This document shows, in pieces, positions 39,931 through 57,682 of a DNA stretch of 64,000 nt (its first letter is position 1; each line of letters opens with the position of its first letter). The position numbers were made by a program, and so were the translations under genes. The notes below the pieces were generated by a model. It was not told where the DNA came from and made no database searches. It worked only from the letters and a program-made list of their open reading frames with translations. The stretch spans positions 2,741,501-2,805,500 of the forward strand of contig NZ_CP093528.1 in assembly GCF_022682305.1 (NCBI RefSeq), written 5' to 3'. The stretch comes from Shinella zoogloeoides. Lineage in GTDB: Bacteria > Pseudomonadota > Alphaproteobacteria > Rhizobiales > Rhizobiaceae.

Positions 39931-39952
39931 CTTTGCAATAATTATTGCAAAG
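39931..39952. promoter_or_regulatory. Cyclitol-locus palindrome, site 1 (iolD promoter)
   Basis: TTTGCAATAATTATTGCAAA with one more pair on each side makes a perfect 22-bp palindrome, the most symmetric of five related sites in this locus. It stands between iolD and the end of the upstream MocA-type gene, so iolD has its own controlled promoter. The likely binder is the RpiR-type IolR encoded 2.3 kb away. Confidence 0.7.
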
Positions 39953-39954
39953 CA

Positions 39955-41145
39955 CTAGAACAAAGTGCAGGCCGTCCAGGCGCCGCCTGACTTGCTGGAT
40001 GCAAGCGCGGCCTCGGCGAACTTCACGCCAAGCGCGCCATCCATCACCGTCGGATAGGCGAGGAGACCTTCGGGCAGGGTTACACCGAGACGGCGGGCTT
40101 CGATGGCGATCGCGAACTCCTCATAGAGATTGCCCCACGCATCGCTCAACGCCTCCGGATGGCCGCGCGGCATGTGTACGAAGCGTGCGGCATGTGTGCC
40201 GATGCCGGCGCCCTCGCCGCGCGTCAGCACACGAGCGGGTTCGCCGAAGCACCGGAAATGCAGAAGTTCCGGCTCCTCCTGATTCCATTCCAGGCTGGCC
40301 TTGTCGCCGAAGACCCGAATGCGCAGGCCGCAATGAGCACCGGGCGCAACCTGCGAAATCATGATGGTGCCGGGAATATCCCCCTCGTAGCGCACCTGCA
40401 TGAAGGCCGTGTCCTCCAGCGGCTTCGGCGGGCCGAGCGTGTGGAACTCCGCCCGAACCGCCGTAACGGGCCTGCCACAGACGAACGCGCCGAGATGGTG
40501 GCAATGCGTGCCTATGTCACCCGTGGTGAAGGTCGAGCCGACGATGGCGGGATCGACGCGCCACTGGGCACCCGCGCCCGCCTCGCTCGGTGGCGTCAGA
40601 GCCCATTCCTGGAAATACTCGACATGCACCTGCCGGAGTTTTCCGAGCGCCCCGCTCTGAACCATCTGGCGAGCCTGGCGAACCATCGACGAGGCCGCAT
40701 AGGCATAGGTAACCCCGAAGACAAGGCCTGTCTCCTTCTGCCGGCGCACCAGGTCAAGCGCATCATCGAGCGTTGTGGTCAACGGCTTGTCGCTGATGAC
40801 GTCGATGCCCTTTTCCATGAAAGCGACCGCAATGGCGTGATGGGAATTGTTGGGAGTGGTGATCGCCACGGCATCGATACCGTCCAGCCGGGCCGCCTCG
40901 CATTCGGCCATCACGCGATAATCGGTATAGACCCGGTCATCGTCGAGCAGCCATTCGCGACCCGATTCCCGGGCGACCTGCGGACGCGACGACAGCGCCC
41001 CCGCCACGACATCCCAGCGGTTGGAAAGCCTGGCACCACGGGCATGCACCTTGCCGATGAAACTTCCCTGCCCGCCGCCAACGACGCCGAGCCGCAAACG
41101 CCGCCGCGCCATTGGAAAAGCCATATCGTTCGAACGAACTTCCAT
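39955..41145 (-). CDS. Gfo/Idh/MocA-family dehydrogenase
   Basis: This is an NAD(P)-dependent sugar or cyclitol dehydrogenase of 396 residues. The N-terminal cofactor motif is VVGGGQGSFIG (about 21-31) and the EKP-equivalent is SDKPLTT. The extended middle part (YFQEWALTPPSE and the TFTTGDIGTHCHHLG segment) puts it in a subgroup larger than IolG. The second of two adjacent ATGs (41145) has the better spacing from GGAGG. It is divergent from iolG, and both share the motif at 41206. A role in oxidising an inositol isomer or a downstream keto-inositol is inferred. Confidence 0.85.
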   Translation of the reverse strand: MEVRSNDMAFPMARRRLRLGVVGGGQGSFIGKVHARGARLSNRWDVVAGALSSRPQVARESGREWLLDDDRVYTDYRVMAECEAARLDGIDAVAITTPNNSHHAIAVAFMEKGIDVISDKPLTTTLDDALDLVRRQKETGLVFGVTYAYAASSMVRQARQMVQSGALGKLRQVHVEYFQEWALTPPSEAGAGAQWRVDPAIVGSTFTTGDIGTHCHHLGAFVCGRPVTAVRAEFHTLGPPKPLEDTAFMQVRYEGDIPGTIMISQVAPGAHCGLRIRVFGDKASLEWNQEEPELLHFRCFGEPARVLTRGEGAGIGTHAARFVHMPRGHPEALSDAWGNLYEEFAIAIEARRLGVTLPEGLLAYPTVMDGALGVKFAEAALASSKSGGAWTACTLF

Positions 41146-41205
41146 CATCCCCTCCAACCGCCCGAAAGCGAGCTTGCAGAATTAATATTGAGATAATATA
41201 AAATT

Positions 41206-41223
41206 CGCAATGTTTTTTGCAAA
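41206..41223. promoter_or_regulatory. Cyclitol-locus motif, site 2 (divergent MocA / iolG promoter)
   Basis: CGCAATGTTTTTTGCAAA matches the GCAAT-N6-TGCA pattern of the other sites in the locus. It lies in the 99-bp gap between two divergent dehydrogenase genes and could regulate both. Confidence 0.6.
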
Positions 41224-41244
41224 CAACCTTTCGGGAGAAGGACC

Positions 41245-42249
41245 ATGACGAGGATCGCATTGCTCGGCTGCGGGCGCATCGGCAAGATGCACGCGGCGAC
41301 CATAGCGCGCGCCGAGGGCGCGGTGCTTGCCGCTGTCTACGACCCGGTCGCCGCCGCTGCCGAGGACATCGGCCGCCGCCATGGCTGCACCGTCGCCGCC
41401 AGCGCGCAAGAGGCTATAGCACTGGCCGATGCCGTACTGATCGCCACGTCCACGGCGACCCATGCAGACCTTATCGAAGCCGCCGCAAACGCCGGAAAAG
41501 CGATTTTCTGCGAGAAGCCGATCGATCTGTCGCTTGCCCGCGTGGTCGCCTGCCGCAAGGCAATCGCCGGTTTCGACAGGCCCGTCCAGATCGGTTTCAA
41601 CCGCCGTTACGACCCTGGCCACCGGGCTGCGCGCGATGCGGTGCACGCCGGCGAGATCGGAAATCTCCAACAGGTGATCATCACCTCCCGCGACCCCGGC
41701 CTCGCTTCGCGGGACTATCTCAAGGTGTCCGGCGGCATCTTCCGCGACATGACCATCCACGACTTCGACCTCGCCCGCTTCATGCTCGGCGAAGAACCCG
41801 TCGAGGTCTTCGCCACCGGCAGCACACTCATCGACCCGACGCTCGCGGAATTCGGCGATGTCGACTCCACGATGATCATCCTGCGCACCGGCAGCGGGAA
41901 ACTCTGCCACATCAACAATTCCCGCGCCGCCGCCTATGGCTACGACCAGCGCGTCGAGCTGTTCGGCACGAAGGGCATGCTGATCTCCGGCAACCGGCGC
42001 GCCCATCAGGTCGAGCGCTTTACCGCGACCGCAACCGGTGCGGGCGAACCCTATCTCGACTTCTTCATCGAGCGATATGTCGAAGCTTTCGAGATCGGTC
42101 TGCGGTCCTTCCTGAACTGCGTCGCGGAAAACCGCGTGCCGGACGTCACCTTCGACGATGGCGAGAAAGCGCTGGTTCTGGCCGAGACCGCCATTCGCTC
42201 GAAGACGGAGGGCCGCTTCGTCAAGGTCGAGGAGATGGTCGGCCGCTAG
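41245..42249 (+). CDS. iolG: Inositol 2-dehydrogenase
   Basis: This is an NAD-dependent oxidoreductase of 334 residues that converts myo-inositol to scyllo-inosose, the first step of the pathway. Motifs are GCGRIGKMHA (8-17), EKPIDLS (90-96) and the catalytic region GGIFRDMTIHDFDLARF (163-179) with the Asp/His pair of the Gfo/Idh/MocA family; these are close to rhizobial IdhA/IolG. GGGAGAAGG precedes the ATG. Its stop codon overlaps that of iolR on the opposite strand. This gene is also called idhA in rhizobia. Confidence 0.88.
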   Translation: MTRIALLGCGRIGKMHAATIARAEGAVLAAVYDPVAAAAEDIGRRHGCTVAASAQEAIALADAVLIATSTATHADLIEAAANAGKAIFCEKPIDLSLARVVACRKAIAGFDRPVQIGFNRRYDPGHRAARDAVHAGEIGNLQQVIITSRDPGLASRDYLKVSGGIFRDMTIHDFDLARFMLGEEPVEVFATGSTLIDPTLAEFGDVDSTMIILRTGSGKLCHINNSRAAAYGYDQRVELFGTKGMLISGNRRAHQVERFTATATGAGEPYLDFFIERYVEAFEIGLRSFLNCVAENRVPDVTFDDGEKALVLAETAIRSKTEGRFVKVEEMVGR

Positions 42250-43157
42250 CTTTTACGCCGCTGCTTGCCCGTGACCGTCGGTATCTCGGGCGAGCCTTTC
42301 TGATCCTCCTGCAACAAGGCAGCCAACGCCACGGCAATGGTCTGCGTCAGGCACATCGGTGCGGCAAGCGATCGCGAGAACGAATATTCGTCCTCGGGAA
42401 TGGTGAAGAGCACGGCAGCATTCTTCGCAAGCGGGGAAAGCTGGCTATCGGTAATCGCGACGATCGGCGTGCCGTTCTCCGCCGCGACATCGGCGATCGT
42501 CACCACCTCCTTGGCATAGTGGCGGAAGGATATCGCCACCAGGACATCCTTCTTCCCCATCACCTTGGCCATCTCGGGCGCAAGCCCTCCGGCGGGATCG
42601 AGCAGAATGACCCGGCATTGCAGCATGGACAGCACGTATCGAAGGAACTTGGCGATCGGCTCCGAGCGCAACTGACCGGCAATGAAGATGGTGTTGGCGT
42701 TCTTCATCGCCCGCGCTGCTCGCGACAGGCTCTCCTCCGTCGTCGTGTTCAACAGCTCCTGCAACGTGGCGATATCGCGCACGACGAGGTCGTGCAGGAA
42801 GCCGAGATTACCTTTGCGCTTGTTCTTCTCCAGATCGACGTCGAGCGCGCTGATACGCTCACGATATCCCGGCGCGGCTGTAGACAAGCGGGTCTGGAAC
42901 ACCGACTGGAGCTGCTTGAAACCCGCGAAACCGAAGTGCTGGGCAAATCGAACCAGAATTGAGGGATGGGCGCCGCACAGTTCGGAAATCGCATTGACCG
43001 ACTGCATCGCCACAACGTTCGGGTTTTGCGTGATGTAGCGGGCGACTTGCTGGAACCGGTCGGAGAGCTTCGGATACTCTTCAGTAATGAGGTTGACGAG
43101 CGTCTCGTAATTGGCCGTCTTCGGTGGCGGCTGGTCGGACTGCTTTATCCTCGGCAT
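42246..43157 (-). CDS. iolR: RpiR-family regulator, IolR-like
   Basis: The product has 303 residues with an N-terminal HTH_6 domain (about 15-95; VNAISELCGAHPSILVRFAQHFGFAGFKQLQ) and a SIS domain (about 140-270). RpiR-type IolR proteins repress inositol genes in rhizobia and enterobacteria, and its place beside iolG in the locus supports this name. The start is the ATG at 43157 with GGAG nearby. Upstream, TGCA repeats at 43218-43229 (TGCA-GTAT-TGCA) may be a variant operator. The five GCAAT-N6-TGCA sites in the locus are the proposed targets. Confidence 0.85.
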   Translation of the reverse strand: MPRIKQSDQPPPKTANYETLVNLITEEYPKLSDRFQQVARYITQNPNVVAMQSVNAISELCGAHPSILVRFAQHFGFAGFKQLQSVFQTRLSTAAPGYRERISALDVDLEKNKRKGNLGFLHDLVVRDIATLQELLNTTTEESLSRAARAMKNANTIFIAGQLRSEPIAKFLRYVLSMLQCRVILLDPAGGLAPEMAKVMGKKDVLVAISFRHYAKEVVTIADVAAENGTPIVAITDSQLSPLAKNAAVLFTIPEDEYSFSRSLAAPMCLTQTIAVALAALLQEDQKGSPEIPTVTGKQRRKS

Positions 43158-43264
43158 ACGGCCTGCTCCCAGATGCAATTCTCCGTAGCCAGCATAAGCT
43201 GACGTCGGGCATTTATTTGCAGTATTGCATAAGCGCAAACTCTGCAACGTATGTCTCAATGGGG

Positions 43265-43297
43265 GCGTCCCGTCATGGACACGCCATGACGGGACGC
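43265..43297. terminator. Long perfect hairpin after the first sugar ABC operon
   Basis: GCGTCCCGTCATGG (43265-43278) and CCATGACGGGACGC (43284-43297) are perfect 14-bp arms around ACACG. It lies 22 bp beyond the binding-protein stop, with no T-tract. It may stabilise the 3' end of the transcript or act with Rho. A protein-binding palindrome upstream of iolR is the alternative. Confidence 0.6.
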
Positions 43298-43319
43298 TAG
43301 AACAACCCTGCGACCGCTA

Positions 43320-44267
43320 TCAGTATGGCGCGTCGGGGAAGTAATATTCCGCAGCATTGTCCTTGGTAATCAGGGGGCTGCCGAGCACGTAGCGGCCATT
43401 GATCGGGGCCTGGGTGGCATATTTCATCGTGACCAGTTCAATGGCGGGGATGATCAGCGTCGGCGGGTAGAAGATGTCGGCATCGACCATGTCGTGACCG
43501 TCCTGCACCAGCTTGATGACCTTGTTCATGCCCGAGCCGCCGAGCACCGTCACGTTCTTGCGGTCGGCCTGCTTGATCGCCTCGATGGCACCGAGCGCCG
43601 CATCGTCGTCACCGGCCCACACGCCGTCGATCTGCGGGAAGCGCTGCAGGTAGTCCTGCATGACCTCGAAGCCCTTGTCCGGATTCCAGTTGGCGTACTG
43701 CATGTCGAGCACCTCGATCTTGGTGCCCTTCAGCGCCTCGTTGAAGGCGTCGATGCGGATATTGTCAATCGCCGTCGGAATGCCGCGCATCACGACGATC
43801 TTGCCGCCATCGGGGAACTTCTTCTTGAAGTATTCGGCCGCGGCCTTGCCATACTGCGGATTGTCGCCACCGACGTAGAGATCCTCGATGCCCTCCTCCG
43901 CAAGACCGCGGTCGACGGTGGCAATGAAGACACCCTTGGCCTTGGCCGCCTTTACCGGCTCCGTCAGCGGATCGGACTCGAAGGGCAGTACGACGAGCGC
44001 GTTGATGTTCCGCGCCATCAAGTCCTCGATATCGTTGACCTGCTGCGTGGCGCTCGACGACGTCGCCAGCACGAAATCGATGTTCGGGAACGCTTCCTTC
44101 ATCCGGTCGATGGTGCGCTTGGTGTGGTAGTTGAGACCACCCGTCCAGCCATGCGTGGCAGCCGGGATGGAGATGCCGATCACGGCGTCCGCAGAAAGCG
44201 CCGGCGACGCCAAACCTGCGACCGCAACCGCGCCGGCGGCAATAAGGGACTTCAGTCTATTGAGCAT
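43320..44267 (-). CDS. Ribose/inositol-type ABC transporter, substrate-binding protein
   Basis: This is a periplasmic class I binding protein (RbsB/MocB-like) of 315 residues. A signal peptide ends near SPALSA. IGISIPAATHGWTGGLNYH and GVWAGDDDAALGAIEAIKQ are typical of the sugar-binding group. It is the last gene of a long minus-strand operon, after its own ATPase and permease. Motifs point to a cyclic polyol, sugar or sugar acid; the neighbouring aldolase and dehydrogenases suggest the substrate yields a 2-keto-3-deoxy acid. Confidence 0.9.
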   Translation of the reverse strand: MLNRLKSLIAAGAVAVAGLASPALSADAVIGISIPAATHGWTGGLNYHTKRTIDRMKEAFPNIDFVLATSSSATQQVNDIEDLMARNINALVVLPFESDPLTEPVKAAKAKGVFIATVDRGLAEEGIEDLYVGGDNPQYGKAAAEYFKKKFPDGGKIVVMRGIPTAIDNIRIDAFNEALKGTKIEVLDMQYANWNPDKGFEVMQDYLQRFPQIDGVWAGDDDAALGAIEAIKQADRKNVTVLGGSGMNKVIKLVQDGHDMVDADIFYPPTLIIPAIELVTMKYATQAPINGRYVLGSPLITKDNAAEYYFPDAPY

Positions 44268-44305
44268 TTCGTTCCTCCTGTTGAAGCTAAGAAATCGTGA
44301 TGTCG

Positions 44306-45322
44306 TCAGTCTTGCGCACGATCGCGCTGCAGGAAGACGGCAATGATGATGATCGCGCCCTGGAACGCGCCGTTAAGGTAGGGGCTGATGAAGCCCGTTA
44401 GGTTCAGGATGTTGCTGATGAAGCCGAGGATCAGCACACCGACGATCGTGCCCCAGATGCGACCGAAGCCGCCGCTGAGCGCCGTGCCGCCGATGATGAC
44501 GGCGGCAATCGCCTCCAGCTCCCACATGAGGCCGGTCGAGGGCGTGGCCGCGCCGAGCCGCGGGACGTAGATGACAGTGGCGACGGCGACGCAGAGACCC
44601 TGGATGACATAGGTGAGGATGCGCACCCGGCTGACGGGAATGGCCGAGTAAAAGGCGACATGCCGGTTCGAGCCGATGGCGGCGACATGCCGGCCGAAGC
44701 GCATGCGCCTCAAAGCAAGCTCGCCGATGACCGCGATGACCGCGAGCACGACGATCGGCACCGCAATGCCGAAGACCTGCCCGTAATAGATCGGGCGGGC
44801 CGCGTCGCGCAGCGAGAAGTCCAGCGAGATCGAGCCGCCGTCCGCAAGCCAGGTGATGACCGAGCGGAAGATACCCATGGCGCCGAGCGTGACGATGAAG
44901 GCCTCCACCCGGCCCCTGACAATCATGAAGCCGTTGATGAAGCCGGCGAAAGCACCGATGGCGAGCGAGAAGACGATGCCGGCGGCGACGAGCAGCCAGC
45001 CATCGCCGAGCGTGGCGGCGGCGGCGTTCATGAACATGATCGTCATGCCGGCGACGAGCGCCGAGAGCGAACCGACCGAAAGGTCAAGCCCGCCAGCGGT
45101 GATGACGAAGGTGGCCCCGACCGCGATGATGCCGATGATGGCGCTGCGCGTGAAGACGTTTGACAGGTTCTCCGCGCCAAGGAAGCTGTCGCTCATCGCC
45201 GTGCCGATCAGCATCAGCAGGATCAGCGCGAGGAGCGGACCGGCGGCCTCGAGAATGCGCATGAGGGAGCGGCCCGGCGACGAGGCTGCGCCGCCGGCGG
45301 TCGTTGCGGTGATGTCGGTCAA
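44306..45322 (-). CDS. Ribose/inositol-type ABC transporter, permease
   Basis: This is an inner-membrane permease of the RbsC class, 338 residues with eight to ten helices. The conserved TAGGLDLSVGSLSALVAG (about 75-92) and GTALSGGFGRIWGTIVGVLILGFISNIL (near 275-302) are present. It overlaps the ATPase gene by 4 bp (ATGA). The binding-protein gene follows 38 bp later. It forms a complete importer with its two neighbours. Confidence 0.9.
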   Translation of the reverse strand: MTDITATTAGGAASSPGRSLMRILEAAGPLLALILLMLIGTAMSDSFLGAENLSNVFTRSAIIGIIAVGATFVITAGGLDLSVGSLSALVAGMTIMFMNAAAATLGDGWLLVAAGIVFSLAIGAFAGFINGFMIVRGRVEAFIVTLGAMGIFRSVITWLADGGSISLDFSLRDAARPIYYGQVFGIAVPIVVLAVIAVIGELALRRMRFGRHVAAIGSNRHVAFYSAIPVSRVRILTYVIQGLCVAVATVIYVPRLGAATPSTGLMWELEAIAAVIIGGTALSGGFGRIWGTIVGVLILGFISNILNLTGFISPYLNGAFQGAIIIIAVFLQRDRAQD

Positions 45323-46827
45323 TGGCTTGCCTCCTCCCTGGGGGTCTTCTCATCAAGGCCCATGGCAAATCGGATAATGTCGTTCTCGTTGATGTCTTCG
45401 CCCGAAAGCTCGCCGGCGATGCGCCCGCGGCGCATGACGAGCACCCGGTCGGAAAGGCCGACGATCTCCTGCATCTCCGAGGAGATGACGACGATGGCCT
45501 TGCCCTCGGCGGCGAGGCCCGCGATGATCTCGTAGATCTGCTGCTTTGCGCCGATATCGACGCCGCGCGTCGGTTCGTCGAAGACGACGAGGTCCGGCTC
45601 CACGCCTAGCGTCTTGGCGATGAGCACCTTCTGCTGGTTGCCGCCGCTGAGCGCACCGGCCGTGACATCCAGCCGGCCGGCGCGAATGTCGTAGCGCTTG
45701 ACCGCCGCCTCCAGCGCATTCCGTTCGGCACGCCGGTCGATCCATGCAGCCCCGGCGATAGCGCCACGGGTGAGCGCGACGTTCTGGTCCAGCGACTTGC
45801 CGAGCAGCAGGCCCTTGCCCTTGCGGTCTTCCGTCAGGTAGGCGAGCTTCAGCGCCCACGCTTCGCGCGCCGCCGGCAGGCGCCGTTCCTTGCCGCGCAG
45901 CACGAAGGAGCGGCACCTCGCCTGACGCAGACCAAGCAGCGCTTCGAACAGTTCCGTGCGGCCCGAGCCGACGAGGCCGGAAATGCCAAGGACTTCCCCC
46001 TCGCGGATATCGAGCGAGGCATCCTCGACGGTATCGGGCGAGGAAAGGCCGACGACGCTGAGCAGCGCCTTGCGCGGCGCGGCACCCCGACGGGGCGGGT
46101 AGATCTCCGCCAGCGGCCGACCGACCATGGCCTCGGCCATCTCGTCCTCGGAAATGGCTTGGGCCTTTTCCACCCGCACGATCTGCCCGTCGCGCAGCAC
46201 CGCGACGCGGTCGGCGATCGCCTTCACCTCGTCGAGACGATGCGATGTGAAGATCACCGACCCGCCGCTTTCGCGGAAGGCGCGGATACGGGTAAAGAGA
46301 TTGCCGGCCTCGGCCGCCGAAAGGACAGCGGTCGGCTCGTCCATCAGAATGAGTTTCGGCTGGCGGGCGAAGGCTTTCGCAAGCTCGATCATCTGCCAGT
46401 CGGAAACCGGCAGGTCGCGAAGCCGCGCCCGTACCGGAGCCATCGAGCCGAGTTCGGCGAGAAGCGCGCGCGCCCTCGTCTCCATCGCCTTGCGATCGGT
46501 AAAAAGGCCGCGCGTCAACTCGCGTCCGAGGAAGACGTTCTCCGCTACCGTCAGGTGCGGCGCGAGGCAGAATTCCTGGTGCACCATGACGATACCCGCA
46601 CGCTCGGCGTCGTGCAGCGTCGCCGGCGCAGAGGCGCCGTCCAGCAGCATCGCCCCGGCAGAGGGGGCGGCCAGACCTGCGGCGATGCGCATGAGGGTCG
46701 ACTTGCCCGCGCCGTTCTCGCCGACAAGGGCGAGCACTTCGCCCGGTTCGACGACGAGATCGATGCCCTTCAGAACGGGCACGACGCCGTAGGATTTCTC
46801 GATCTGGCGGAAGGTCAGAAGCGCCAT
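45319..46827 (-). CDS. Ribose/inositol-type ABC transporter, double ATP-binding protein
   Basis: This is an RbsA-type ATPase with two ABC domains in 502 residues. The first has Walker A GENGAGKST and Walker B LILMDEP but a changed signature (LPVSDWQM for LSxGxxQ). The second has a degenerate Walker A (GLVGSGRTE) and a good signature LSGGNQQK with VVFDEPTRGVDIG. This asymmetry is normal for the family. The ATG at 46827 is two bases after the stop of the 2-hydroxyacid dehydrogenase; a longer upstream frame lies over that gene and is rejected. Confidence 0.9.
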   Translation of the reverse strand: MALLTFRQIEKSYGVVPVLKGIDLVVEPGEVLALVGENGAGKSTLMRIAAGLAAPSAGAMLLDGASAPATLHDAERAGIVMVHQEFCLAPHLTVAENVFLGRELTRGLFTDRKAMETRARALLAELGSMAPVRARLRDLPVSDWQMIELAKAFARQPKLILMDEPTAVLSAAEAGNLFTRIRAFRESGGSVIFTSHRLDEVKAIADRVAVLRDGQIVRVEKAQAISEDEMAEAMVGRPLAEIYPPRRGAAPRKALLSVVGLSSPDTVEDASLDIREGEVLGISGLVGSGRTELFEALLGLRQARCRSFVLRGKERRLPAAREAWALKLAYLTEDRKGKGLLLGKSLDQNVALTRGAIAGAAWIDRRAERNALEAAVKRYDIRAGRLDVTAGALSGGNQQKVLIAKTLGVEPDLVVFDEPTRGVDIGAKQQIYEIIAGLAAEGKAIVVISSEMQEIVGLSDRVLVMRRGRIAGELSGEDINENDIIRFAMGLDEKTPREEASH

Positions 46828-46829
46828 GG

Positions 46830-47819
46830 TCAGGCCCCGGCCGCCGAGAGGCGATGTGCAGTGATCTCTGAGCGGTTGACGACCAGCGCCGGGTCGAGCG
46901 TCCCTCTGAAATAGTCGACGATATTCGTCGCCGCCGAAATCGCCATGCGGCGCGCGCAGGCTTCCGTCAGCCCCGCATTGTGCGGCGAGAGCACGACGCG
47001 TTCGCACGCGAGCATCGGGTCGCCCGCCGCCGGCGGCTCAGCGTCGAACACGTCGAGGCCGGCGGCGGCAAGGCGGCCCTCGTTCAGGGCGGCAAGCAAG
47101 CCCGCCTCGTCGATGAGCCCGCCGCGCGCGGTGTTGATGAGAATGGCCGACCGCTTCATGACGGCTAGCTCCGCAGCACCGATCAGCGGTTCGGCGCCTG
47201 ACTTCGGCACATGCAGCGAAACGACGTCGGCACGGCGCAGGCCGTCCACAAGATCGACGACCGGGGTGACACCCGCCGCCGCGATATCGGCGGCTTCCTG
47301 GAACCTGTCATAGGCGAGCACCGCCATGCCGAGCGCCGTCGCGATCTGCGCCAGCCGCCGGCCGATACGTCCGAAGCCGACGATGAGGAGCGTGCGCCCG
47401 TCAAGCTCGTCCGCGTCGAGGCTGTTGCGGTAGTTCCAGTCACCGGCGCGCATTTTCTGGTCGAAAAGTACGGTCCGTCGCGCGGCGGCCAGCATCAGCA
47501 TGACCGCATGCTCCGCGACGGCGCGCGAGTTGACGTCGCCGACGACGGCGAGCGGGATGCCCCGGGCATTCAGCGCCGCGACATCGACGGAATCGTAGCC
47601 GACGCCGTGACGGGAGACGATGCCGAGCCGGGACGCCTTCTCGACGAAGGCGGCCGACAGCGGCTGGGTGCGGATAAGCAGCGCATCGGCGGCCGGCAGG
47701 AACGGCTCGTAGCTCGCCGCCGAGACCTCCTCGACATAGTCCACCGTCACCTCCGGCGCGGCGCGAAGGACGGCGAGGCCGTCGGCGTGGATCTTGCCTG
47801 CAACGAGAACTCTCGGCAT
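46830..47819 (-). CDS. D-isomer-specific 2-hydroxyacid dehydrogenase
   Basis: This is an NAD(P)-dependent reductase of 329 residues. The Rossmann motif is IVGFGRIGRRLAQ (about 146-158). The catalytic set is Arg in NTARGGLIDE, Glu in FDAEPP and His in LSPHNAGLTE. The ATG follows GGGAGG, and the aldolase stop codon is directly adjacent (TGAATG). In this operon it may reduce or oxidise the 2-keto or hydroxy acid made next to the aldolase step, such as a tartronate- or lactate-like compound. Confidence 0.87.
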   Translation of the reverse strand: MPRVLVAGKIHADGLAVLRAAPEVTVDYVEEVSAASYEPFLPAADALLIRTQPLSAAFVEKASRLGIVSRHGVGYDSVDVAALNARGIPLAVVGDVNSRAVAEHAVMLMLAAARRTVLFDQKMRAGDWNYRNSLDADELDGRTLLIVGFGRIGRRLAQIATALGMAVLAYDRFQEAADIAAAGVTPVVDLVDGLRRADVVSLHVPKSGAEPLIGAAELAVMKRSAILINTARGGLIDEAGLLAALNEGRLAAAGLDVFDAEPPAAGDPMLACERVVLSPHNAGLTEACARRMAISAATNIVDYFRGTLDPALVVNRSEITAHRLSAAGA

Positions 47820-48635: not shown

Positions 48636-48646
48636 GGATGCCTCCT

Positions 48647-50209: not shown

Positions 50210-51184
50210 TCAACAAGGCCGCGGCGGCAGCGTCAGGGGTATGCGCTGGCGGGTCGCCATTGCCGCCACCACCTGGTCGGCAAGGCAGGTGGCGACAAGC
50301 CCGTCCCAGGCGGTCGAGCCGTCCGCCGGAGGGGTGCCGGCGCGGATGCCGTCGACCCAGGCCTGATTCTGAATACGGTAAGCATCGCGGAAGCGCGGAA
50401 TCCAGTTTTCCGGAAAACGCCCCTCCTGCGCCCCGTCACGGCGTATGCGGATCGGCGCGGGATGCGCCATGGCGATCGTGCCCTTCACGCAGACGGCTTC
50501 GGCGTGAACATGGTATCCGTAGGCAGCGTTCATGAAGACCTCCACGGAAACCAGGCTGCCGGCCTCCGTTTCGAAGACGAAGAGCACCGGATCGCCCGCG
50601 GGGGACGGAATGACGGTGACGGCGCTATATTCCGTCGACAGCAGCCATCGGCAGATATCGATTTCGTGCACCAGCGAATTCGTGACGGCCATCGCGCCGG
50701 TGAACCAGGCGGGCGCGGCCACGTTGCGGTGCTGGCAATGGAGGATGCGCACCCCGCCGAGCGCTTCGTCATCCATGATCGCCTTCATTTCGCGATAGGC
50801 GGGGTCGAAGCGGCGATTGAAACCGGTCTGCACCAGCCGGCGGCCGGCACGCGCCTCGGCCGCGACGATCTCCAGGCATTCGTCCGTGCTGACGGCAAGC
50901 GGCTTTTCGCAGAGCACCGGCTTGCCGGCGGCAATCGCCGCCAGCACCAGCCGCTGATGCGTGGCATCCGGCGAAGCCACGAGCACGGCCTCGACTGCGG
51001 GATCGGCGATGAGGGCCTCGGGATCGGCCATCGTTCGGCCGCCCTGCGCCGCCGCCTCCGCCCGCGCCAGATCGGCATCCGCGACGGCGGCAAGATGCGC
51101 GCCCGAGACCTCGCAGGCGATAAGGCGCGCATGTTCCGCGCCCATAACACCCGCCCCGATAACGCCGACACCGATACTCCTCAT
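50210..51184 (-). CDS. Gfo/Idh/MocA-family dehydrogenase, IolG-like
   Basis: The product has 324 residues. The cofactor motif is GVIGAGVMGAEHARL (about 8-22) and EKPLAVS follows near 94. The catalytic segment MAVTNSLVHEIDICRWLL carries the conserved Lys/Asp/His-type pattern with His in VHEID. It resembles inositol and scyllo-inositol dehydrogenases. GGGGAGGG precedes the ATG. It is the second gene after another MocA-type gene (14-bp gap), and both are read from the site at 52355. Substrate is probably an inositol isomer or methyl-inositol-derived compound. Confidence 0.85.
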   Translation of the reverse strand: MRSIGVGVIGAGVMGAEHARLIACEVSGAHLAAVADADLARAEAAAQGGRTMADPEALIADPAVEAVLVASPDATHQRLVLAAIAAGKPVLCEKPLAVSTDECLEIVAAEARAGRRLVQTGFNRRFDPAYREMKAIMDDEALGGVRILHCQHRNVAAPAWFTGAMAVTNSLVHEIDICRWLLSTEYSAVTVIPSPAGDPVLFVFETEAGSLVSVEVFMNAAYGYHVHAEAVCVKGTIAMAHPAPIRIRRDGAQEGRFPENWIPRFRDAYRIQNQAWVDGIRAGTPPADGSTAWDGLVATCLADQVVAAMATRQRIPLTLPPRPC

Positions 51185-51198
51185 AGTGCCCTCCCCGT

Positions 51199-52314
51199 TC
51201 AGGCCACCGCCAGCCAGCGTTCGGCGCGGGCGGAATTCTGAATCGTCTCCACCAATGTCTGGATGCGCAGGCCGGCACGGAAATTGAACGGCTCGGGCCG
51301 AAGACCCGCTATCGCCTCCAGATAGCCGGCGACCTCGATGGCCTTCAGGTCGTTGAAGCCGAGCTGATGGCCGGGCGCCACGCAGAAGCGGCCGTAGGGC
51401 ACATGGTCCGGTCCCGCCTCGATGCGGCGGAACCCCTGCCTGCCCTTCGCATCCGCCGTCGAATAGAAATGCAGTTCGTTGAAGCGCTCCTGCGAGAAGG
51501 CAAGCGCCCCCTTCGTGCCGTAGACCTCGAAATCGTGCTGCATCTTGCGGCCGGTGGCGATCCAGTTACCCTCGACGGAGCCACTCGCACCGTTCGCAAA
51601 GCGCAGGAACGCACGACCGACATCGTCGATCTCGACCGCGCGCGCGCCGCCCCTGCCATCGGGCCGCTGCGAGATCATCGTCACGCAATCGCCCATGACC
51701 CTGGTGATGGGGCCAAGGAGATACTCTGCGGTCGCCAGCGCATGGCTGCCGATATCGGCCAGCGCGCCGCCACCTGCCGGATCGTGCCGGAAAGTGAAGG
51801 GTGCACTGGCGTCGGCCATGTAGTCCTCGGCATGGAGGCCGCGATAGCCGCGGATCTCGCCAAGCTCGCCGCCGGCGATCATCTCCTTCGCAAGGGCAAG
51901 CATGGGATTGCAGAGATAATTGAAGCCGACCTGTGTCTTGAGGCCCGCTTTCTCCGCCGCCTCCGCCATCTCACGCGCATCGGCGGACAGCGGGGCGAGC
52001 GGCTTTTCACAATAGACGTGCTTGCCCGCGGAGATGGCGGCAAGCGCCATCTCCTTGTGCAGCGCGTTCGGCGCGGTGATGTCGATCAGGTCGATGCCGG
52101 GGTCGGCGACAAGACTGCGCCAGTCATCCGTGGCGCGCCGGAAGCCGAGCGCGGCGCGGGCAGCCTCGGCCTGCGCCATCGTTACGTCGGCAATGGCGGT
52201 CAGTTCCACCTCATAGGGCAGATCGAACACCCGCATGGCGGCGGCAAAACCGAACACATGCGTCTTACCCATGAAACCCGACCCGATGAGGCCAAGGCGG
52301 AGCGTCTTCTTCAT
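51199..52314 (-). CDS. Gfo/Idh/MocA-family dehydrogenase
   Basis: The product has 371 residues. Motifs are LIGSGFMGKTHVFGF (about 9-23) and EKPLAPLS (about 97-104). The catalytic region is HDPAGGGALADIGSHALATAEYLLGP, with the conserved Asp/His pair. This longer subgroup differs from IolG and from the gene at 39955, so the locus has three distinct dehydrogenases of the family besides iolG. The start is the ATG behind GAGGA; the frame continues 45 bp further without a site. It is divergent from iolE over 151 bp. Confidence 0.85.
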   Translation of the reverse strand: MKKTLRLGLIGSGFMGKTHVFGFAAAMRVFDLPYEVELTAIADVTMAQAEAARAALGFRRATDDWRSLVADPGIDLIDITAPNALHKEMALAAISAGKHVYCEKPLAPLSADAREMAEAAEKAGLKTQVGFNYLCNPMLALAKEMIAGGELGEIRGYRGLHAEDYMADASAPFTFRHDPAGGGALADIGSHALATAEYLLGPITRVMGDCVTMISQRPDGRGGARAVEIDDVGRAFLRFANGASGSVEGNWIATGRKMQHDFEVYGTKGALAFSQERFNELHFYSTADAKGRQGFRRIEAGPDHVPYGRFCVAPGHQLGFNDLKAIEVAGYLEAIAGLRPEPFNFRAGLRIQTLVETIQNSARAERWLAVA

Positions 52315-52354
52315 TCTGCTGATCCTCGGATATGCGGCCTCCTCCAGGCGCGAA

Positions 52355-52370
52355 TGCAATTATCTTTGCA
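52355..52370. promoter_or_regulatory. Cyclitol-locus motif, site 4 (divergent MocA / iolE promoter)
   Basis: TGCAATTATCTTTGCA keeps both half-sites (TGCAAT and TTGCA). It sits 41 bp from the MocA-type start and 96 bp from iolE, and could control both genes. Confidence 0.65.
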
Positions 52371-52465
52371 TAAATATTGAATTGTCAATATTTGTTTTGC
52401 ATGATCGCCCAGCCAGGCCGGCAGGCGGCCGGCATTCCCGTTTTCCGCAAGCCCGGAGCTAGAAC

Positions 52466-53365
52466 ATGAAGGCCAGACTTGGCATTGCCCCCATTGCATG
52501 GTGGAACGACGACCTGCCGGAAATCAGCAGCGACATCTCGCTGGAAGGCTGCCTTGCCGAAGCTGCGGAAGCCGGCTTCACCGGCATGGAGACAGGCCGG
52601 CGCTTTCCGATGGACGCGGCGGTGCTGCGTCCCATCCTCGACAGATACGGCATCCAGGTCTGCGGCGGCTGGTTCTCCGGTCTCCTGCTCGATGGCGACA
52701 TCGAGGCGGAGAAGGACCGGATCGCCGGGCAGATGGCGCTGTTCAAGGCTGTCGGCGCACCCTGCATCGTCTATGGCGAGACAGCCGGCACCATCCAGGG
52801 CGACCGCACCGCGCCCCTCTCCACCAAGCGCCGTCTCTCCGAGGGCGAGATCCGATCCTATGGCCACAAGTTGACCGCCTTCGCCGAATGGTGCGCCGAC
52901 CAGGGCATGCCGATCTCCTACCATCACCACATGGCCGCACCCATCGAGACCGAGGACGAACTCGATCTCCTGATGAAGCATTCCGGCGAGAGCCTGCCGC
53001 TGCTCTTCGACGCCGGCCACATGGCCTTCGCGGGCGGCGACGTGCTGCGCGTCATCGACAGGCACCACAGGCGCATCAGCCATGTCCACACCAAGGATGT
53101 CCGCCTGCCCGTCATCGCGGCGCTCGACCGCACGCGGGACAGCTTCCTCGACGCGGTGATCAAGGGCGCCTTCACTGTTCCCGGCGACGGCGACCTCGAC
53201 TTCGAGGCCATCGTCAAGCGTCTTGCCTCCCATGGCTACGAAGGCTGGTTCGTCGTCGAGGCGGAACAGGACCCCACCCACAACCCGCCACTCGATATGG
53301 CGAAGATCGGCCATCGGGAACTTCTGCGCGTCATGGCGGCCGCCGGCTACGAGGTGATCCGCTGA
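52466..53365 (+). CDS. iolE: Myo-inosose-2 dehydratase family (IolE/MocC type)
   Basis: This is a TIM-barrel sugar-isomerase-like enzyme of 299 residues, the IolE length. IAPIAWWNDDLPE matches the IolE N-terminus, and YHHHM (about 152-156), LFDAGHMAFAGGD, HVHTKDVR and EGWFVVEAEQDP hold the metal-binding residues. IolE dehydrates scyllo-inosose to the dione that IolD opens. MocC from rhizopine catabolism is in the same family and cannot be excluded. It is alone on the plus strand, with a shared terminator. Confidence 0.85.
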   Translation: MKARLGIAPIAWWNDDLPEISSDISLEGCLAEAAEAGFTGMETGRRFPMDAAVLRPILDRYGIQVCGGWFSGLLLDGDIEAEKDRIAGQMALFKAVGAPCIVYGETAGTIQGDRTAPLSTKRRLSEGEIRSYGHKLTAFAEWCADQGMPISYHHHMAAPIETEDELDLLMKHSGESLPLLFDAGHMAFAGGDVLRVIDRHHRRISHVHTKDVRLPVIAALDRTRDSFLDAVIKGAFTVPGDGDLDFEAIVKRLASHGYEGWFVVEAEQDPTHNPPLDMAKIGHRELLRVMAAAGYEVIR

Positions 53366-53394
53366 GGAGAGCCGCAAACTTCAAGTCTTCGGGA

Positions 53395-53430
53395 AGGCGT
53401 GCACGACAGACCGTCCGGCACGCCTTTCCT
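53395..53430. terminator. Bidirectional terminator between iolE and the second sugar ABC operon
   Basis: AAGGCGTGC (53395-53403) and GCACGCCTT (53419-53427) form a 9-bp stem, followed by T and C residues on the plus strand. The two flanking genes converge on it. Confidence 0.7.
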
Positions 53431-53434
53431 CGTT

Positions 53435-54211
53435 TCAGATCGTGCCGCCGAGCGAGCTTTCCAGCAGAGCAAGCTCCTGCCCGCCCGCCATCATGTCCTG
53501 CAACGCGGCGGCGTCCACCGTGCCGCGCTCCGCCGTCCCCAGCGTCTGGCCTCGGTTGAGCACCGTAAAGCGATCGCCGACGGCGAGTGCATGGCGAACG
53601 TTATGCGTGATGAAGACGACGCCGATGCCCTGCTTGCGCACGCGATCGATCGTGCTCAGCACGTTCGCCGTCTGGCGAACGCCGAGCGCCGAAGTCGGCT
53701 CGTCGAGGATCAGCACCTTCGCGCCGAAATAGACCGCCCGCGCGATGGCGACGGTCTGCCGCTCGCCGCCCGAAAGCGTGCCGACGGCCTGGTCCGGCCC
53801 GCGTAGGTTGATGCCCATCTTGCGCATCTCCGCCACGGTGATCTCGTCGGCCCTTGCCGTATCGAAGGTTTTGAACGGCCAGATGCCCCGCTCCGGCTCG
53901 CGCCCCATCCAGAAATTGCGGCTGACGCTCATCAGCGGGATCATGGCAAGGTCCTGGTAGACCGTGGCGATACCCGCGGCCATCGCGTCGCGCGGGCTTT
54001 GGAAGAGTGTCGGCGTACCCTCCACCAGCACTTCGCCATCGCTCGGCCTGTAGACGCCGGACATGATCTTGATGAAGGTCGACTTGCCCGCCCCGTTGTC
54101 GCCGAGCAGGCAGTGGCATTCGCCCGGCCGGATGTCGAAGGAGACGCCGGCCAGCGCGATGACATGGCCGAAGTGCTTCTGGATGTTCCTCATCTCCACG
54201 ATGGCGGTCAT
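53435..54211 (-). CDS. Inositol-type ABC transporter, ATP-binding protein
   Basis: This is a single-domain ATPase of 258 residues of the sugar-import group (FrcA/IatA-neighbour type). Walker A is GDNGAGKST, signature LSGGERQ and Walker [22 protein letters not shown] is typical of the group that serves ribose/inositol-like permeases with one ABC domain rather than two. Its ATG overlaps the permease stop (TGATG). A longer upstream frame is a shadow of the permease gene. Confidence 0.9.
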
Positions 54212-55332
54212 CAGCGTTCTCCCGTGATGATGCGGCGGATATAGGTGTTCATGATCACCGCCGTGAGCAGGATGACGCCAAGGAAGACGCGGAACAGCGA
54301 GCTTTCGGCATTGGCGAAGAACAGACCCTGCTGCACCACGCCGAAGATGATGGCGCCAAGCGCGGCGCCGATGACGGAACCGTAGCCGCCCGTCAGCAGC
54401 GCGCCGCCGATGACCACGCAGATAATCGCCTCGAACTCCTTGAGAAGGCCGCGGTCGGCCGCCGCCGAACCGAACTCCATCACCTGGCAGGTGGCGAAGA
54501 CACAGGCGCAGAAGGCCGAGAACATGAACATCAGGATTTTCACCCGGTTGACCGGCACGCCGACATAGCGCGCGGCGAGCGGGTCGCCGCCCGAGGCAAA
54601 TATCCAGTTGCCGAACTTGGTGCGCGTCAGAAGCCAATGGCCGAAGACGACGAGCACGATGGCCCAGACGACGAGCATGGGAACGCCATCGATGACGGGC
54701 TGGCCCGCGCGGTTGCCGCGGGTGAACGTGGCGATCCATCCCATCTCCCCCATCCAGGCGAAGAAGCCGGTCAGGATCTTGCCGCCGAAGAACGGCGCCA
54801 GCCAGTCGCCGGCCGCCTTCTCGCCCACGCCGCCGATGATCGTCTGGCCCGTGAAATAGACCGAGCCCCAGATCGTGAGACCGCGCAGGATATAGAGGAA
54901 GGCGAGCGTGACGATGAAGGACGGCAGGCCGGTACGGATGACGAGCCAGCCGTTCACCGCGCCGATGAAGACGCAGAAGAGGAAGGTCACGATGATGGAA
55001 AGCCAAAGCGGCACGCCGAGATGGACGGCAAGGATAGCCATCATCAGCCCGGAGAATCCGATCATCGAGCCTGTGGAAAGGTCGAACTCGCCCGCGATCA
55101 TCAGAAGGCAGGCGCCGACCGCAATGACCATGAACTGCGCCGAGACCACGGTCCAGTTCATCACGCCCTCGGCGGCGAACATGCCGCTGTCGCCGGCGAC
55201 GATGGCAAACAGCAGGAAGACCAGGATGGTGCCGCAGATACCGCCGAGTTCGGGCCGGATCAGCGCGCGCTTGAGCGGCGAGACGGGTTTGATGCGCTCG
55301 TCCTTCGACGCGCCATTGATGACGTCCGTCAT
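54211..55332 (-). CDS. Inositol-type ABC transporter, permease
   Basis: This is an RbsC-class permease of 373 residues with about ten helices. [23 protein letters not shown] (about 76-98) and [29 protein letters not shown] (near 310-338) are the family landmarks. A hairpin lies between it and the binding-protein gene, so its expression is probably lower than that of the binding protein. It overlaps the ATPase gene by one base. Confidence 0.9.
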
Positions 55333-55361
55333 GAATGCATTCTCCTCCCTCGAAAATCGTT

Positions 55362-55389
55362 CGGGGCGCGCCGTCGGCCGCGCACCCCG
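55362..55389 (-). terminator. Intercistronic hairpin between binding-protein and permease genes
   Basis: CGGGGCGCG (55362-55370) pairs with CGCGCACCCCG (55379-55389) with one bulged base. Hairpins in this place usually stabilise or partly terminate the binding-protein message. Confidence 0.5.
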
Positions 55390-55402
55390 ACGGACCGTCA
55401 GG

Positions 55403-56347
55403 TCAGCGGTACTGGCCTGCCAGCGACTCGACGAGCGCGATGTTGTCCTTGGTCACGAAGCCCGGACCCGTGAAGATCGAGTTGGCCGGGGCGACGCCGT
55501 AGCGGACGTAGCTCGTCAGAACCTGGATCGGGATCGAGCCTTGGAGGAAAGGCTGCTGATCGATGGCAAAGTTGATCGTGCCGTCCTTGATGGCGGCGGA
55601 GATCTCGGCCGAGAGGTCGAAGGTGCCGAAGTAGATATCGCCGTCCAACCCCATTTCCTTGACCGCGCGGATCGAGGGTTCCGCCGAATTCGGGCCGAGC
55701 GTCAGGATCGCGCCGGTGTCCTTGTTCGCCGTGAGGTAAGCCTTGACCTTGTTCTGGATTTCCGACGGGTCGATACCGGAGTCGATCATCTGGTTGCCGA
55801 GCTCGACACCGATACCCTCGGCAAAGCCGCGGCAGCGTTCGACGGAAGCGGGGTTCGTGATGTAGTGGTTCACGCACACGAAGCTCTTGACGCCGGCCTC
55901 CTTCGCGCGCTTTCCAGCACCAAGTCCCGCCTCGTATTCCGGCTGGCCGACATGCATCAGCGCACCGAGCTTCTGGCTCTCCTCCACCGTCCCCGAATTG
56001 ACGGTGACAACCGGAATCCCCTTGGCGACGGCGTCCTTGATCGGACCTTCGAGCACGTTGTAGTCGGCGATGGTGACGATGATGCCGTCGACGCCTGCCG
56101 CCGAGCTCTGCTGGACGATGCGCGCCATGTCGGCAAGGTCGCCGGTCGGCGGATTGCGATATTCGGTCTCGACATCCATCTGCTCGTTCGTGACCTTGAT
56201 GGCGTTCTTGATGACATTGAACCAGCTATCGCTGTCCGGCCCATGGCTGATCCACACGAACTTCTCACCATCGGCATGTGCCGCGCCGGCAAGCGCGGTC
56301 GTGGCCAGAAGCGCGCCGAGCGCCAGGGACTGCAGAATTTTCTTCAT
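55403..56347 (-). CDS. Inositol-type ABC transporter, substrate-binding protein
   Basis: This is a class I periplasmic binding protein of 314 residues with a signal peptide ending near AAHA. FVWISHGPDSDSWFNVIKNAIK and the AVAKGIPVVTVNSGT segment match the inositol/sugar-binding subgroup (IatA-like in Caulobacter). GGGAGG precedes the ATG at 56347; a longer frame upstream is non-coding. It is the second gene of the operon, 70 bp after the dioxygenase gene. Confidence 0.88.
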   Translation of the reverse strand: MKKILQSLALGALLATTALAGAAHADGEKFVWISHGPDSDSWFNVIKNAIKVTNEQMDVETEYRNPPTGDLADMARIVQQSSAAGVDGIIVTIADYNVLEGPIKDAVAKGIPVVTVNSGTVEESQKLGALMHVGQPEYEAGLGAGKRAKEAGVKSFVCVNHYITNPASVERCRGFAEGIGVELGNQMIDSGIDPSEIQNKVKAYLTANKDTGAILTLGPNSAEPSIRAVKEMGLDGDIYFGTFDLSAEISAAIKDGTINFAIDQQPFLQGSIPIQVLTSYVRYGVAPANSIFTGPGFVTKDNIALVESLAGQYR

Positions 56348-56417
56348 GTAAGACTTCCTCCCGAAGTTGGCTTCCTGTTCGTGCCCGCCCGAAGCCTTTG
56401 CGGGTGACTTCCTGCCC

Positions 56418-57527
56418 TCAGGCCGCGCGCTTTGCGCCCTGTGCCGAAAGAGCCGCATCGAGGCGGGCCTGGTCCCAGCCTTCGGCAACAGCCCTGGTCA
56501 GCACGTCCTGCTGGCTCTCCGGGGCAAGGCCGCCAAGCGGCGGATCCGTGTCGAGATTGGTCGGGAACGGATACCCGTCCGCCGTTGCGGCGATGACCGC
56601 CCGCCGTCCAGCCGGAGAGAGCGCCGCAAGATGCGGATACACCGCGCGCGCCATGGCGGTGCGGTCGAGGGTTTCCATGTGGCGGGCGAAGGCGGAAGCC
56701 GTCTGGATGAGGTTCACCATACGCACCACATCCGCCGTGCGGTTCTCCCCCGCGGCATGAAACAGGGCCGGGCTGAAGAAGATGGCATCGCCCTTTTCCA
56801 GCGGAAGCTGGACATAATGCTCCTCGAAATAGTCGCGGAATTCCGGGCGTGTGGCGGCAATGTAGCCAGGCAGATAGCGCTGCGAGTGCGGCAGGAGCTT
56901 CGTCGTGCCGCTCTCGACGGGCATGTCGCAATGGGCAACGCCTCCTTGCAGGATCAGCGTGGGGCCGGTCGCGTGGATATGCGTCGGATACTCCGCCATC
57001 TGCTCGGGCTTCATGAAGCCTAGATGGTAGTCGCGATGCGGGGCCTGCGCCTTGCCGCCGGGACGCACCTGGTTGACTTGCGTCGCGATCTGGTAGCCCG
57101 GGCCAAGCCAGGCGCGGCAGGCGATATCGATGACCGGGTTTGCCATGTACCGGGCATAGACGGCCGGGTCGCGAAGGCACAGCTTCTGCAAGCTGTTCCA
57201 GATGCGGTCGTTGGCGCCAGCCTTCGCGAAATGATCGCCTGCGGCCGTACCGGCGGCACGCTCGTCGGCGATGATCTGCCGGAATACCGCGCTTGCTGCG
57301 TCTATAGCGCCGGGATCGGTGAAGGCGCGCTTGACAACGAACACACCCGGCCCCGAGCCGATGACCGAGGCCCATTCCGGGCCGATACCGTCAACCACGC
57401 TTGCGCCATCGTAGATGGGGATGTTCTTCTCGATGGCGATCGCGGTCGGGCACATCGCCTTCGTCGTCTCGGTCTCAACCTCACGCCGGAACTGCGCCAG
57501 GTCGATCACCGTTGCAATATCATTCAT
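56418..57527 (-). CDS. Phytanoyl-CoA dioxygenase family Fe(II)/2-oxoglutarate oxygenase
   Basis: This is a non-haem iron oxygenase of 369 residues. The iron triad is visible as H164 and D166 (APHRDYHLGF) and H257 (LFHAAGENRT), with R263 in place to bind 2-oxoglutarate. CAGGAGG precedes the ATG. It is the first gene of the inositol importer operon and has a cyclitol-locus motif in its promoter. Members hydroxylate, demethylate or epimerise small molecules. Attack on an O-methyl-inositol or an inositol is a reasonable inference; no known inositol pathway gene of this type comes to mind. Confidence 0.83.
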   Translation of the reverse strand: MNDIATVIDLAQFRREVETETTKAMCPTAIAIEKNIPIYDGASVVDGIGPEWASVIGSGPGVFVVKRAFTDPGAIDAASAVFRQIIADERAAGTAAGDHFAKAGANDRIWNSLQKLCLRDPAVYARYMANPVIDIACRAWLGPGYQIATQVNQVRPGGKAQAPHRDYHLGFMKPEQMAEYPTHIHATGPTLILQGGVAHCDMPVESGTTKLLPHSQRYLPGYIAATRPEFRDYFEEHYVQLPLEKGDAIFFSPALFHAAGENRTADVVRMVNLIQTASAFARHMETLDRTAMARAVYPHLAALSPAGRRAVIAATADGYPFPTNLDTDPPLGGLAPESQQDVLTRAVAEGWDQARLDAALSAQGAKRAA

Positions 57528-57648
57528 CGAAATCCTCCTGTTCGATGTCCGAAAACCCATTTGAAGGCAGCAGGTACCGTTCTCGCACACCCCCTCCAGA
57601 GGCAAAGCGAGCGGCAAATTCAGGCATGACTTGCAACCAACAACAGGC

Positions 57649-57682
57649 CGCAATATTAATTGTGGATTTTTCTCAATGTCAA
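57649..57682 (-). promoter_or_regulatory. Promoter with cyclitol-locus motif, site 5 (dioxygenase / inositol ABC operon)
   Basis: On the minus strand TTGACA (57682-57677) and TTAATA (57659-57654) are 17 bp apart. The motif variant CGCAATATTAATTGTG (57649-57664) covers the -10 element, where a bound repressor would block transcription. It is the least symmetric of the five sites. The leader is about 120 bases. Confidence 0.5.

Follow-up and report, generated by a model that had tools for sequence, protein, structure and literature searches.

Regulators of the RpiR family are known to control inositol use and central carbon metabolism from short palindromic operators. IolR of Caulobacter crescentus and Sinorhizobium meliloti, which is of the RpiR type, recognizes GGAA-N6-TTCC (PMC2597717), and 2-deoxy-5-keto-D-gluconate 6-phosphate (DKGP) has been proposed as its effector (PMC8877191). 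In Pseudomonas, HexR reads TTGT-N7-8-ACAA and RccR reads TGTAGT/ACTACA (PMC5489143). Here we analysed a 64-kb stretch (the window) of the 5.14-Mb genome of Shinella zoogloeoides and found five promoters that carry a common palindrome, TGCAAT-N4-ATTGCA. The five palindromes are very probably the operators of a local RpiR-family repressor encoded at 42246-43157. The proposed system resembles that of IolR in combining an RpiR-family regulator of inositol uptake and catabolism, a 16-bp palindrome at several operons and an ATP-binding cassette (ABC) importer. It differs in the half-site (TGCAAT versus TGGAAT) and in the protein, which is 31-34% identical to the host's own canonical IolR. The regulon would also lack iolB and iolC and contain an aldehyde dehydrogenase (ALDH), an HpcH/HpaI aldolase, a D-2-hydroxyacid dehydrogenase (HADH) and a PhyH-family dioxygenase, and the regulator also occurs in genomes without iolB or iolC above the profile cut-offs. 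With HexR and RccR it shares an RpiR protein on a short palindrome, and the RccR half-site is also T-G-x-A, whereas those systems differ in the third half-site base (T), the spacing, the central-carbon targets and the known effector, 2-keto-3-deoxy-6-phosphogluconate (KDPG). The RccR word indicates that a half-site of this form, with a third base that varies, is compatible with the family, at least in the case of RccR. A search of titles and abstract openings, with subscription journals and RegPrecise outside its coverage, found neither this operator nor a second RpiR inositol regulon described.

The sites, scored as mismatches to the 16-mer TGCAAT-N4-ATTGCA, are listed here without strand:

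39932-39951: operator 1, TTTGCAATAATTATTGCAAA, upstream of iolD-SDR, 72 bp from the start codon
41206-41221: operator 2, CGCAATGTTTTTTGCA, between the divergent genes mocA1 (minus) and iolG (plus), 2 mismatches
50151-50166: operator 3, AGCAATTATTATTGCA, upstream of ALDH-HpaI-HADH-ABC1-rpiR, 1 mismatch
52355-52370: operator 4, TGCAATTATCTTTGCA, between the divergent mocA2-iolG2 (minus) and iolE (plus), 1 mismatch
57649-57664: operator 5, degenerate, CGCAATATTAATTGTG, upstream of PhyH-ABC2, 3 mismatches

The 16-mer of operator 1 starts at 39934 (TGCAATAATTATTGCA) and has no mismatch. Start codons lie 23-121 bp downstream of the palindromes at all five sites. The initial annotation, made from the sequence alone, had reported these five palindromes, and all of them are present, with the first 20-mer beginning at 39932 rather than 39931. 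As it stated, each stands at an operon start or in a divergent gap (5/5, read from the sequence). Its statement that the window holds no other copy was not strictly correct, as GCAAT-N6-TGCA has an exact additional match at 23527 on the minus strand, inside the open reading frame (ORF) of a thiamine pyrophosphate enzyme.

That loose pattern proved a poor test statistic and was dropped: at up to one mismatch it gave 25 matches in the window, barely above the 14.3 ± 3.8 of shuffled sequences. The full 16-mer at up to two mismatches has five matches in 64 kb, namely four of the claimed sites and 23527, while the fifth claimed site needs three. Across the genome this search gave 84 forward matches, compared with 25 when the pattern was reversed as a control; with at most one mismatch there were 10 places, three of them in the locus, and outside it, at C1:143540, is an exact copy whose centre is GC-rich. 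Genome-wide, the pattern GCAATWWWWWTTGC has 11 matches when one mismatch is allowed; five of these are the claimed sites (binomial P = 2e-10 for five of 11 within 17.7 kb), compared with no match for the reversed control, and the two exact matches are both in the locus.

Because GCAATWWWWWTTGC was shaped on the claimed sites, matrices built from other genomes are the fairer test. When the matrix was built from all 31 distinct best sites of nine Shinella relatives (35 promoter gaps), the five palindromes took the first five places in the window. With a matrix from 13 distinct GCAA-N6-TTGC sites of non-Shinella loci, the ranks were iolD 1, iolG 2, mocA2/iolE 3, ALDH 4 and PhyH 6; a shifted position in the same iolG gap took rank 5, and operator 1 was the top site with each matrix. 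Smaller site sets (27 of the 31 Shinella sites, or 11 distant sites picked by hand, among them a reverse-complement duplicate) again placed the five at 1-5. With the 27-site matrix, four of the sites scored 27-35 bits, whereas no random 64-kb sequence exceeded 18 (n = 100). The sites lie in AT-rich gaps of a window with 65% GC, and the fifth taken alone falls in the chance range, as would be expected if there were no operator and AT-rich promoter DNA looked alike by chance or shared descent. We regard this as vanishingly unlikely given the scores of the other four, the retrieval of the same word by an unbiased palindrome ranking in distant loci (below), and the presence of the word before unrelated genes within each locus.

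Conservation points the same way. The nearest relatives by locus are Shinella species, and in the 35 gaps of the nine relatives the best site had up to two mismatches in 26 (shuffled gaps, 0.5%) and up to three in all 35 (shuffled gaps, 4.4%). The nine gaps at three mismatches comprise six of iolG/mocA1, two of locus L031 and one of L030. Outside the genus, palindromes were ranked, without reference to the window, in 21 regions beside RpiR relatives in Bradyrhizobium, Acidocella and metagenome-assembled genomes (MAGs), covering 10 of 12 loci (L035 and L041 left out). Exact GCAA-N6-TTGC came first of 2816 palindromes, with 13 of the 21 regions against six for the runner-up, and TTGCAA-N6-TTGCAA came first of 40,960, within two mismatches in 14. 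Aligned PhyH promoters from 13 genomes of the genus, including our own, show a TTGACA box and, downstream over the -10 element, CAATTAATATTGC or a variant. The PhyH gene is present in 13 of 21 genus genomes and an 88-100% identical regulator in the same 13; these have a mean of 8.8 forward GCAATWWWWWTTGC matches (up to one mismatch) versus 3.9 in the other eight, with overlapping ranges of 3-12 and 1-9. From these comparisons, the view that the five promoters form one regulon is well supported.

We next consider which protein reads the sites. The product of the gene at 42246 scores above the cut-offs for both RpiR/MurR domains (PF01418, 42.3 bits, cut-off 28.3; PF01380, 69.4 bits, cut-off 25). 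Its ORF is open up to TTG 43259, and ATG 43157 is the likelier start because most relatives align only from residue 26-50 onward. The gene stands mid-locus, and the motif recurs beside relatives of this protein in other genera, which makes it the best candidate. The genome holds six RpiR (HTH_6) genes, and two other regulators with DNA-binding domains, an RpiR protein (28738-29622) and a LysR protein (35980-36915), are encoded in the window. Reading of the sites by one of these, or by an unlinked factor, is nonetheless quite improbable in view of that recurrence, and the RpiR protein at 28738 is 23% identical and belongs to an amino-acid-type locus. This second RpiR-family gene, on the minus strand, lies in an amino-acid/opine-like neighbourhood with an ABC transporter, a DAO oxidase, an amidohydrolase and an SBP_bac_3 protein.

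The initial annotation had called the 42246 protein the RpiR-type IolR. The family is right and the protein is the best candidate, but it is a paralogue of the canonical IolR, which is encoded by a separate RpiR gene (C1:967115-967966) adjoining iolC, iolD, iolE and iolB. In an unrooted tree, the module proteins and the canonical-like proteins fall on opposite sides. The canonical locus has three sites within two mismatches of the GGAA-N6-TTCC type and no GCAA-type site within two. The genome-wide excess that had been predicted for the present locus was found (five of the 11 GCAATWWWWWTTGC places), and the sites expected near iolB and iolC were not. At up to one mismatch, 16 loci classed as canonical-like (60 kb) contain 13 TGGAAT-type sites and no TGCAAT-type site, whereas nine Shinella module loci (183 kb) contain none and 22, respectively, and 11 distant module loci (145 kb) none and three; TGGAAT-N4-ATTCCA, the mark of canonical IolR, is therefore absent at this threshold from all module loci, Shinella and distant. 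Joint control of the locus by canonical IolR, which the wording of the initial annotation implies, would draw on the shared 16-bp palindrome layout, with one base per half-site differing, and on operator 1, which is within two mismatches of TGGAAT-N4-ATTCCA. It is very unlikely given the separation of the operator types, on which we rejected canonical IolR as the binder, and given that in 8 of 11 non-Shinella genomes with the module regulator neither iolB nor iolC exceeds its cut-off. With its own IolR and GGAA-type sites at the iolC/iolB locus, the genome appears to have a second regulon in parallel, rather than an extension of the canonical one. LacI-type regulators were also considered.

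A central CG is usual in LacI operators. The centres of the five sites all lack it, and a LacI-type operator was rejected; the PckR motif has a central CG (PMC8877191).

Two recognition-helix columns follow the operator type. One is His and the other Lys in 25 of 25 sequences of the module clade, compared with Gln and Ser in 17 of 17 of the canonical-like group, some sequences sharing one genome; the residues are His98 and Lys115 in the numbering of the 337-aa ORF. A canonical-like protein of Acidocella (L071) has RFAQ as in the module clade, yet carries Gln and Ser and stands by GGAA sites, which points to these two columns. We infer that they may set operator specificity. Insulation from the canonical IolR/GGAA operon would then come from a symmetric G to C change at half-site position 3, matched by the helix changes Q to H and S to K. 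The cell would hold two paralogous inositol regulators with operators one symmetric base apart, and the choice between His98/Lys115 and Gln/Ser may be what separates them, a specificity switch open to direct test.

The sites also overlap predicted promoters. A sigma70-like scan of 38,900-58,800 gave six pairs versus 3.4 ± 2.2 in shuffles. Each of the six overlaps an operator, and together they involve four of the five sites. Operator 4 overlaps the -10 of TTGACA-18-GATAAT and operator 5 the -10 of TTGACA-18-TAATAT; in a second scan, operator 1 covers the -35 and spacer of a promoter-like TTGCAA-17-TATAAA pair. This placement makes repression most likely. Activation or dual regulation from the same, real sites has precedent in the family, as GlaR of Lactococcus is an activator (PMC6528599) and the affinity of RccR shifts in either direction with ligand, depending on the site (PMC5489143). 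It is unlikely here, as the majority of sites coincide with part of the best predicted promoters (-35, spacer or -10), which is how a repressor is placed, and deletion of Caulobacter IolR derepresses its targets (PMC2597717).

For the preferred reading, repression by the 42246 protein, we propose that the operator is a 16-18 bp palindrome, (T)TGCAAT-N4-ATTGCA(A), with the core GCAA-N6-TTGC. The RpiR protein bound on the -35/-10 elements would block RNA polymerase until a catabolic intermediate occupies its SIS domain. The regulator gene follows ABC1 in the operon that starts at operator 3, which suggests autoregulation; it probably closes an operon under its own control, giving negative autoregulation. 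The regulon would comprise two ABC importers, four MocA/IolG-type dehydrogenases, iolE, iolD, the SDR, the ALDH-aldolase-2-hydroxyacid dehydrogenase set and PhyH, and its task would be the uptake and breakdown of inositol-type cyclitols. A terminator at the fifth site was considered, as a hairpin with a T run is called at 57648-57665 (plus). It was rejected because the word is aligned across the genus, and because the one plus-strand ORF of at least 150 aa to end shortly ahead of the hairpin, 57024-57629, lies antisense to PhyH and has no Pfam match.

Several points weigh against this reading. The fifth site scored 13.7 bits with the 27-site matrix, where the best site of a random 64-kb sequence averages 11.7 and reaches 18 (n = 100); it is within the chance range by score and was retained on the conservation of the aligned dioxygenase promoters. 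Operators at iolG/mocA1 are weak, with three mismatches in six of the nine relatives. The 13 of 21 non-Shinella regions are not 13 independent cases, since some loci are near-identical and the regions were picked manually on a gene map; the site in L036-L038 may be coding, and sites are degenerate in the Bradyrhizobium-type and Acetobacteraceae loci. Accordingly, a strict scan of nine genomes (TGCAAWWWWWWTTGCA, up to one mismatch) found none in the Bradyrhizobium-type or Acetobacteraceae modules; its in-module matches were three of five in Acidocella G027, one of four in G028 and the single match of MAG G029. The 13/13 co-occurrence of PhyH and regulator partly reflects linkage and shared descent. 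Operator types separate less cleanly at up to two mismatches (TGGAAT/TGCAAT: canonical-like 46/9, Shinella module 8/30, distant 2/19), where the control word TCGAAT has 1, 21 and 10 matches, respectively. The canonical-like loci were classed by similarity, with adjacency to iolC checked only in our own genome and L092, L093 and L069-L071 left out, and our own canonical locus reaches its three GGAA sites only at two mismatches. Of the six promoter calls, three are variants at a single site and another lies on a strand where no gene starts, and AT-richness inflates the promoter-operator overlap. Lastly, the RpiR and LysR genes at 28738 and 35980 offer other candidate readers within the window.

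Profile and domain scans of the locus proteins showed that the gene identities given in the initial annotation are right. From 37.2 to 57.5 kb the order is SDR, iolD, mocA1, iolG, RpiR, ABC1, 2-hydroxyacid dehydrogenase, HpcH/HpaI, ALDH, iolG2, mocA2, iolE, ABC2 and PhyH (SBP, substrate-binding protein; PGDH, phosphoglycerate dehydrogenase; SSADH, succinate-semialdehyde dehydrogenase):

37195-38004, minus: SDR oxidoreductase, PRK06198 subfamily, near iolD in most relative loci of sufficient length
38020-39861, minus: iolD, trihydroxycyclohexanedione hydrolase, TIGR04377 834 bits (cut-off 715), start codon picked by a Shine-Dalgarno-like sequence
39955-41145, minus: mocA1, GFO/IDH/MocA dehydrogenase
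41245-42249, plus: iolG, inositol 2-dehydrogenase, TIGR04380 391 bits (cut-off 355)
42246-43157, minus: RpiR-family regulator, HTH_6 and SIS domains, the proposed operator binder
43320-46827, minus: ABC1 sugar transporter (SBP 43320-44267, permease 44306-45322, ATPase 45319-46827)
46830-47819, minus: HADH, D-2-hydroxyacid dehydrogenase of the PGDH or glyoxylate-hydroxypyruvate reductase type, below cut-offs
47820-48635, minus: HpcH/HpaI class II aldolase, closest solved relative the hydroxyketoacid aldolase SwHKA
48647-50083, minus: ALDH, aldehyde dehydrogenase, SSADH-like, below cut-off
50210-51184, minus: iolG2, inositol/chiro-inositol dehydrogenase-like, below curated cut-offs
51199-52314, minus: mocA2, GFO/IDH/MocA dehydrogenase, levoglucosan dehydrogenase-like, below cut-off
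52466-53365, plus: iolE, inosose dehydratase, TIGR04379 390 bits (cut-off 290)
53435-56488, minus: ABC2 (ATPase 53435-54211, permease 54211-55332, SBP 55403-56488)
56418-57527, minus: PhyH-family dioxygenase, PF05721, start ATG 57527

IolG, IolE and IolD of the locus exceed the NCBIfam cut-offs for the canonical iol pathway. The locus itself contains no iolB or iolC; their only matches above cut-off lie some 1.8 Mb from it, at C1:961376 and C1:965999. Among the 11 non-Shinella genomes with the regulator, the remaining three have iolB above cut-off; two of these also have iolC, and one (G028) falls just short at 292.6 of 300. The iolD and iolE genes are visible in the loci of seven of the eight genomes that lack iolB and iolC (iolD in two pieces in L036), L037 being too short to show them; completeness was not given for these genomes, and MAGs could miss genes by chance, but the set includes the named strains Bradyrhizobium cytisi, B. 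niftali and Acidocella aminolytica. In B. japonicum, a 2008 study found no IolR homologue and no GGAA motif, and several iol genes were missing as well (PMC2597717).

The eight genomes make an alternative lower inositol pathway plausible: where the regulator and iolE-iolD occur without iolB and iolC (Bradyrhizobium, A. aminolytica, MAGs), the IolD product would be processed in another way. We propose tentatively, and with some doubt, that the regulon serves a second inositol pathway, one that works without IolB and IolC. In loci with the enzymes, ALDH or SDR would oxidize 5-deoxyglucuronate to 5-deoxyglucarate, the 2-hydroxyacid dehydrogenase would yield the 2-keto acid, and the HpaI-type aldolase would cleave it to hydroxypyruvate and malonic semialdehyde, without a kinase. 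DKGP should not form where IolC is absent, so that the effector in the proposed route would be an unphosphorylated acid instead. SwHKA accepts hydroxypyruvate (PMC10099721), and the kinship of the aldolase to it suggests such a kinase-free route to hydroxypyruvate and malonic semialdehyde. Residue 215 of the aldolase is His and aligns with F210 of SwHKA, which is described as important for accepting pyruvate analogues.

HpaI was rejected as a universal module gene, since only Shinella, L035 and Acidocella have it close to the regulator. The best HpaI homologues of the Bradyrhizobium-type and Acetobacteraceae genomes (46-51%) have no motif and no ALDH or HADH homologue within 1.5-kb flanks, G029 has no HpaI match, and a weaker HpaI (32%) in G022 has an HADH-like neighbour (L119). 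The absence of an ALDH-HpaI-HADH set beside the Bradyrhizobium regulator weakens the pathway proposal for those genomes. In A. aminolytica, the ALDH beside HpaI consists only of two short fragments (L044, 4442-4789), apparently a remnant with a large internal deletion, and these fragments weigh against the kinase-free route.

The PhyH dioxygenase might strip or hydroxylate modified cyclitols, for example O-methyl inositols. A protein search (the best 8000 candidates by common words) gave, among the matches listed, no name beyond the dioxygenase family, and a PDB search gave two weak matches. The proposal would tie this enzyme and the HpaI aldolase to cyclitol use, and for bacteria like Bradyrhizobium it puts forward both a regulator and a set of genes. 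Rhizopine (moc) loci, which use a Rieske-type MocDEF demethylase system, share with the present locus a rhizopine-SBP-like importer subunit, MocA-type dehydrogenases and an iolE-type protein. They differ in that the best family of the ABC2 SBP, the rhizopine SBP NF052284, scores 263 bits against a cut-off of 420 and the dioxygenase here is of the PhyH type. No MocDEF was found among the scanned locus genes, and no genome-wide search for it was made.

Other features of the locus vary or stand apart. Additional operators occur in other Shinella at L122 4343 and L125 6744, each before another sugar ABC operon, and at L123 5305; the first two suggest that regulon content varies. Between the ABC1 SBP gene and the regulator, a perfect 14-bp inverted repeat at 43265-43297 (GCGTCCCGTCATGG / CCATGACGGGACGC, 5-base loop) could attenuate regulator expression. 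In Shinella lacus (L047, 9898-10001) there are no ABC1 genes between HADH and the regulator, which follows directly after HADH.

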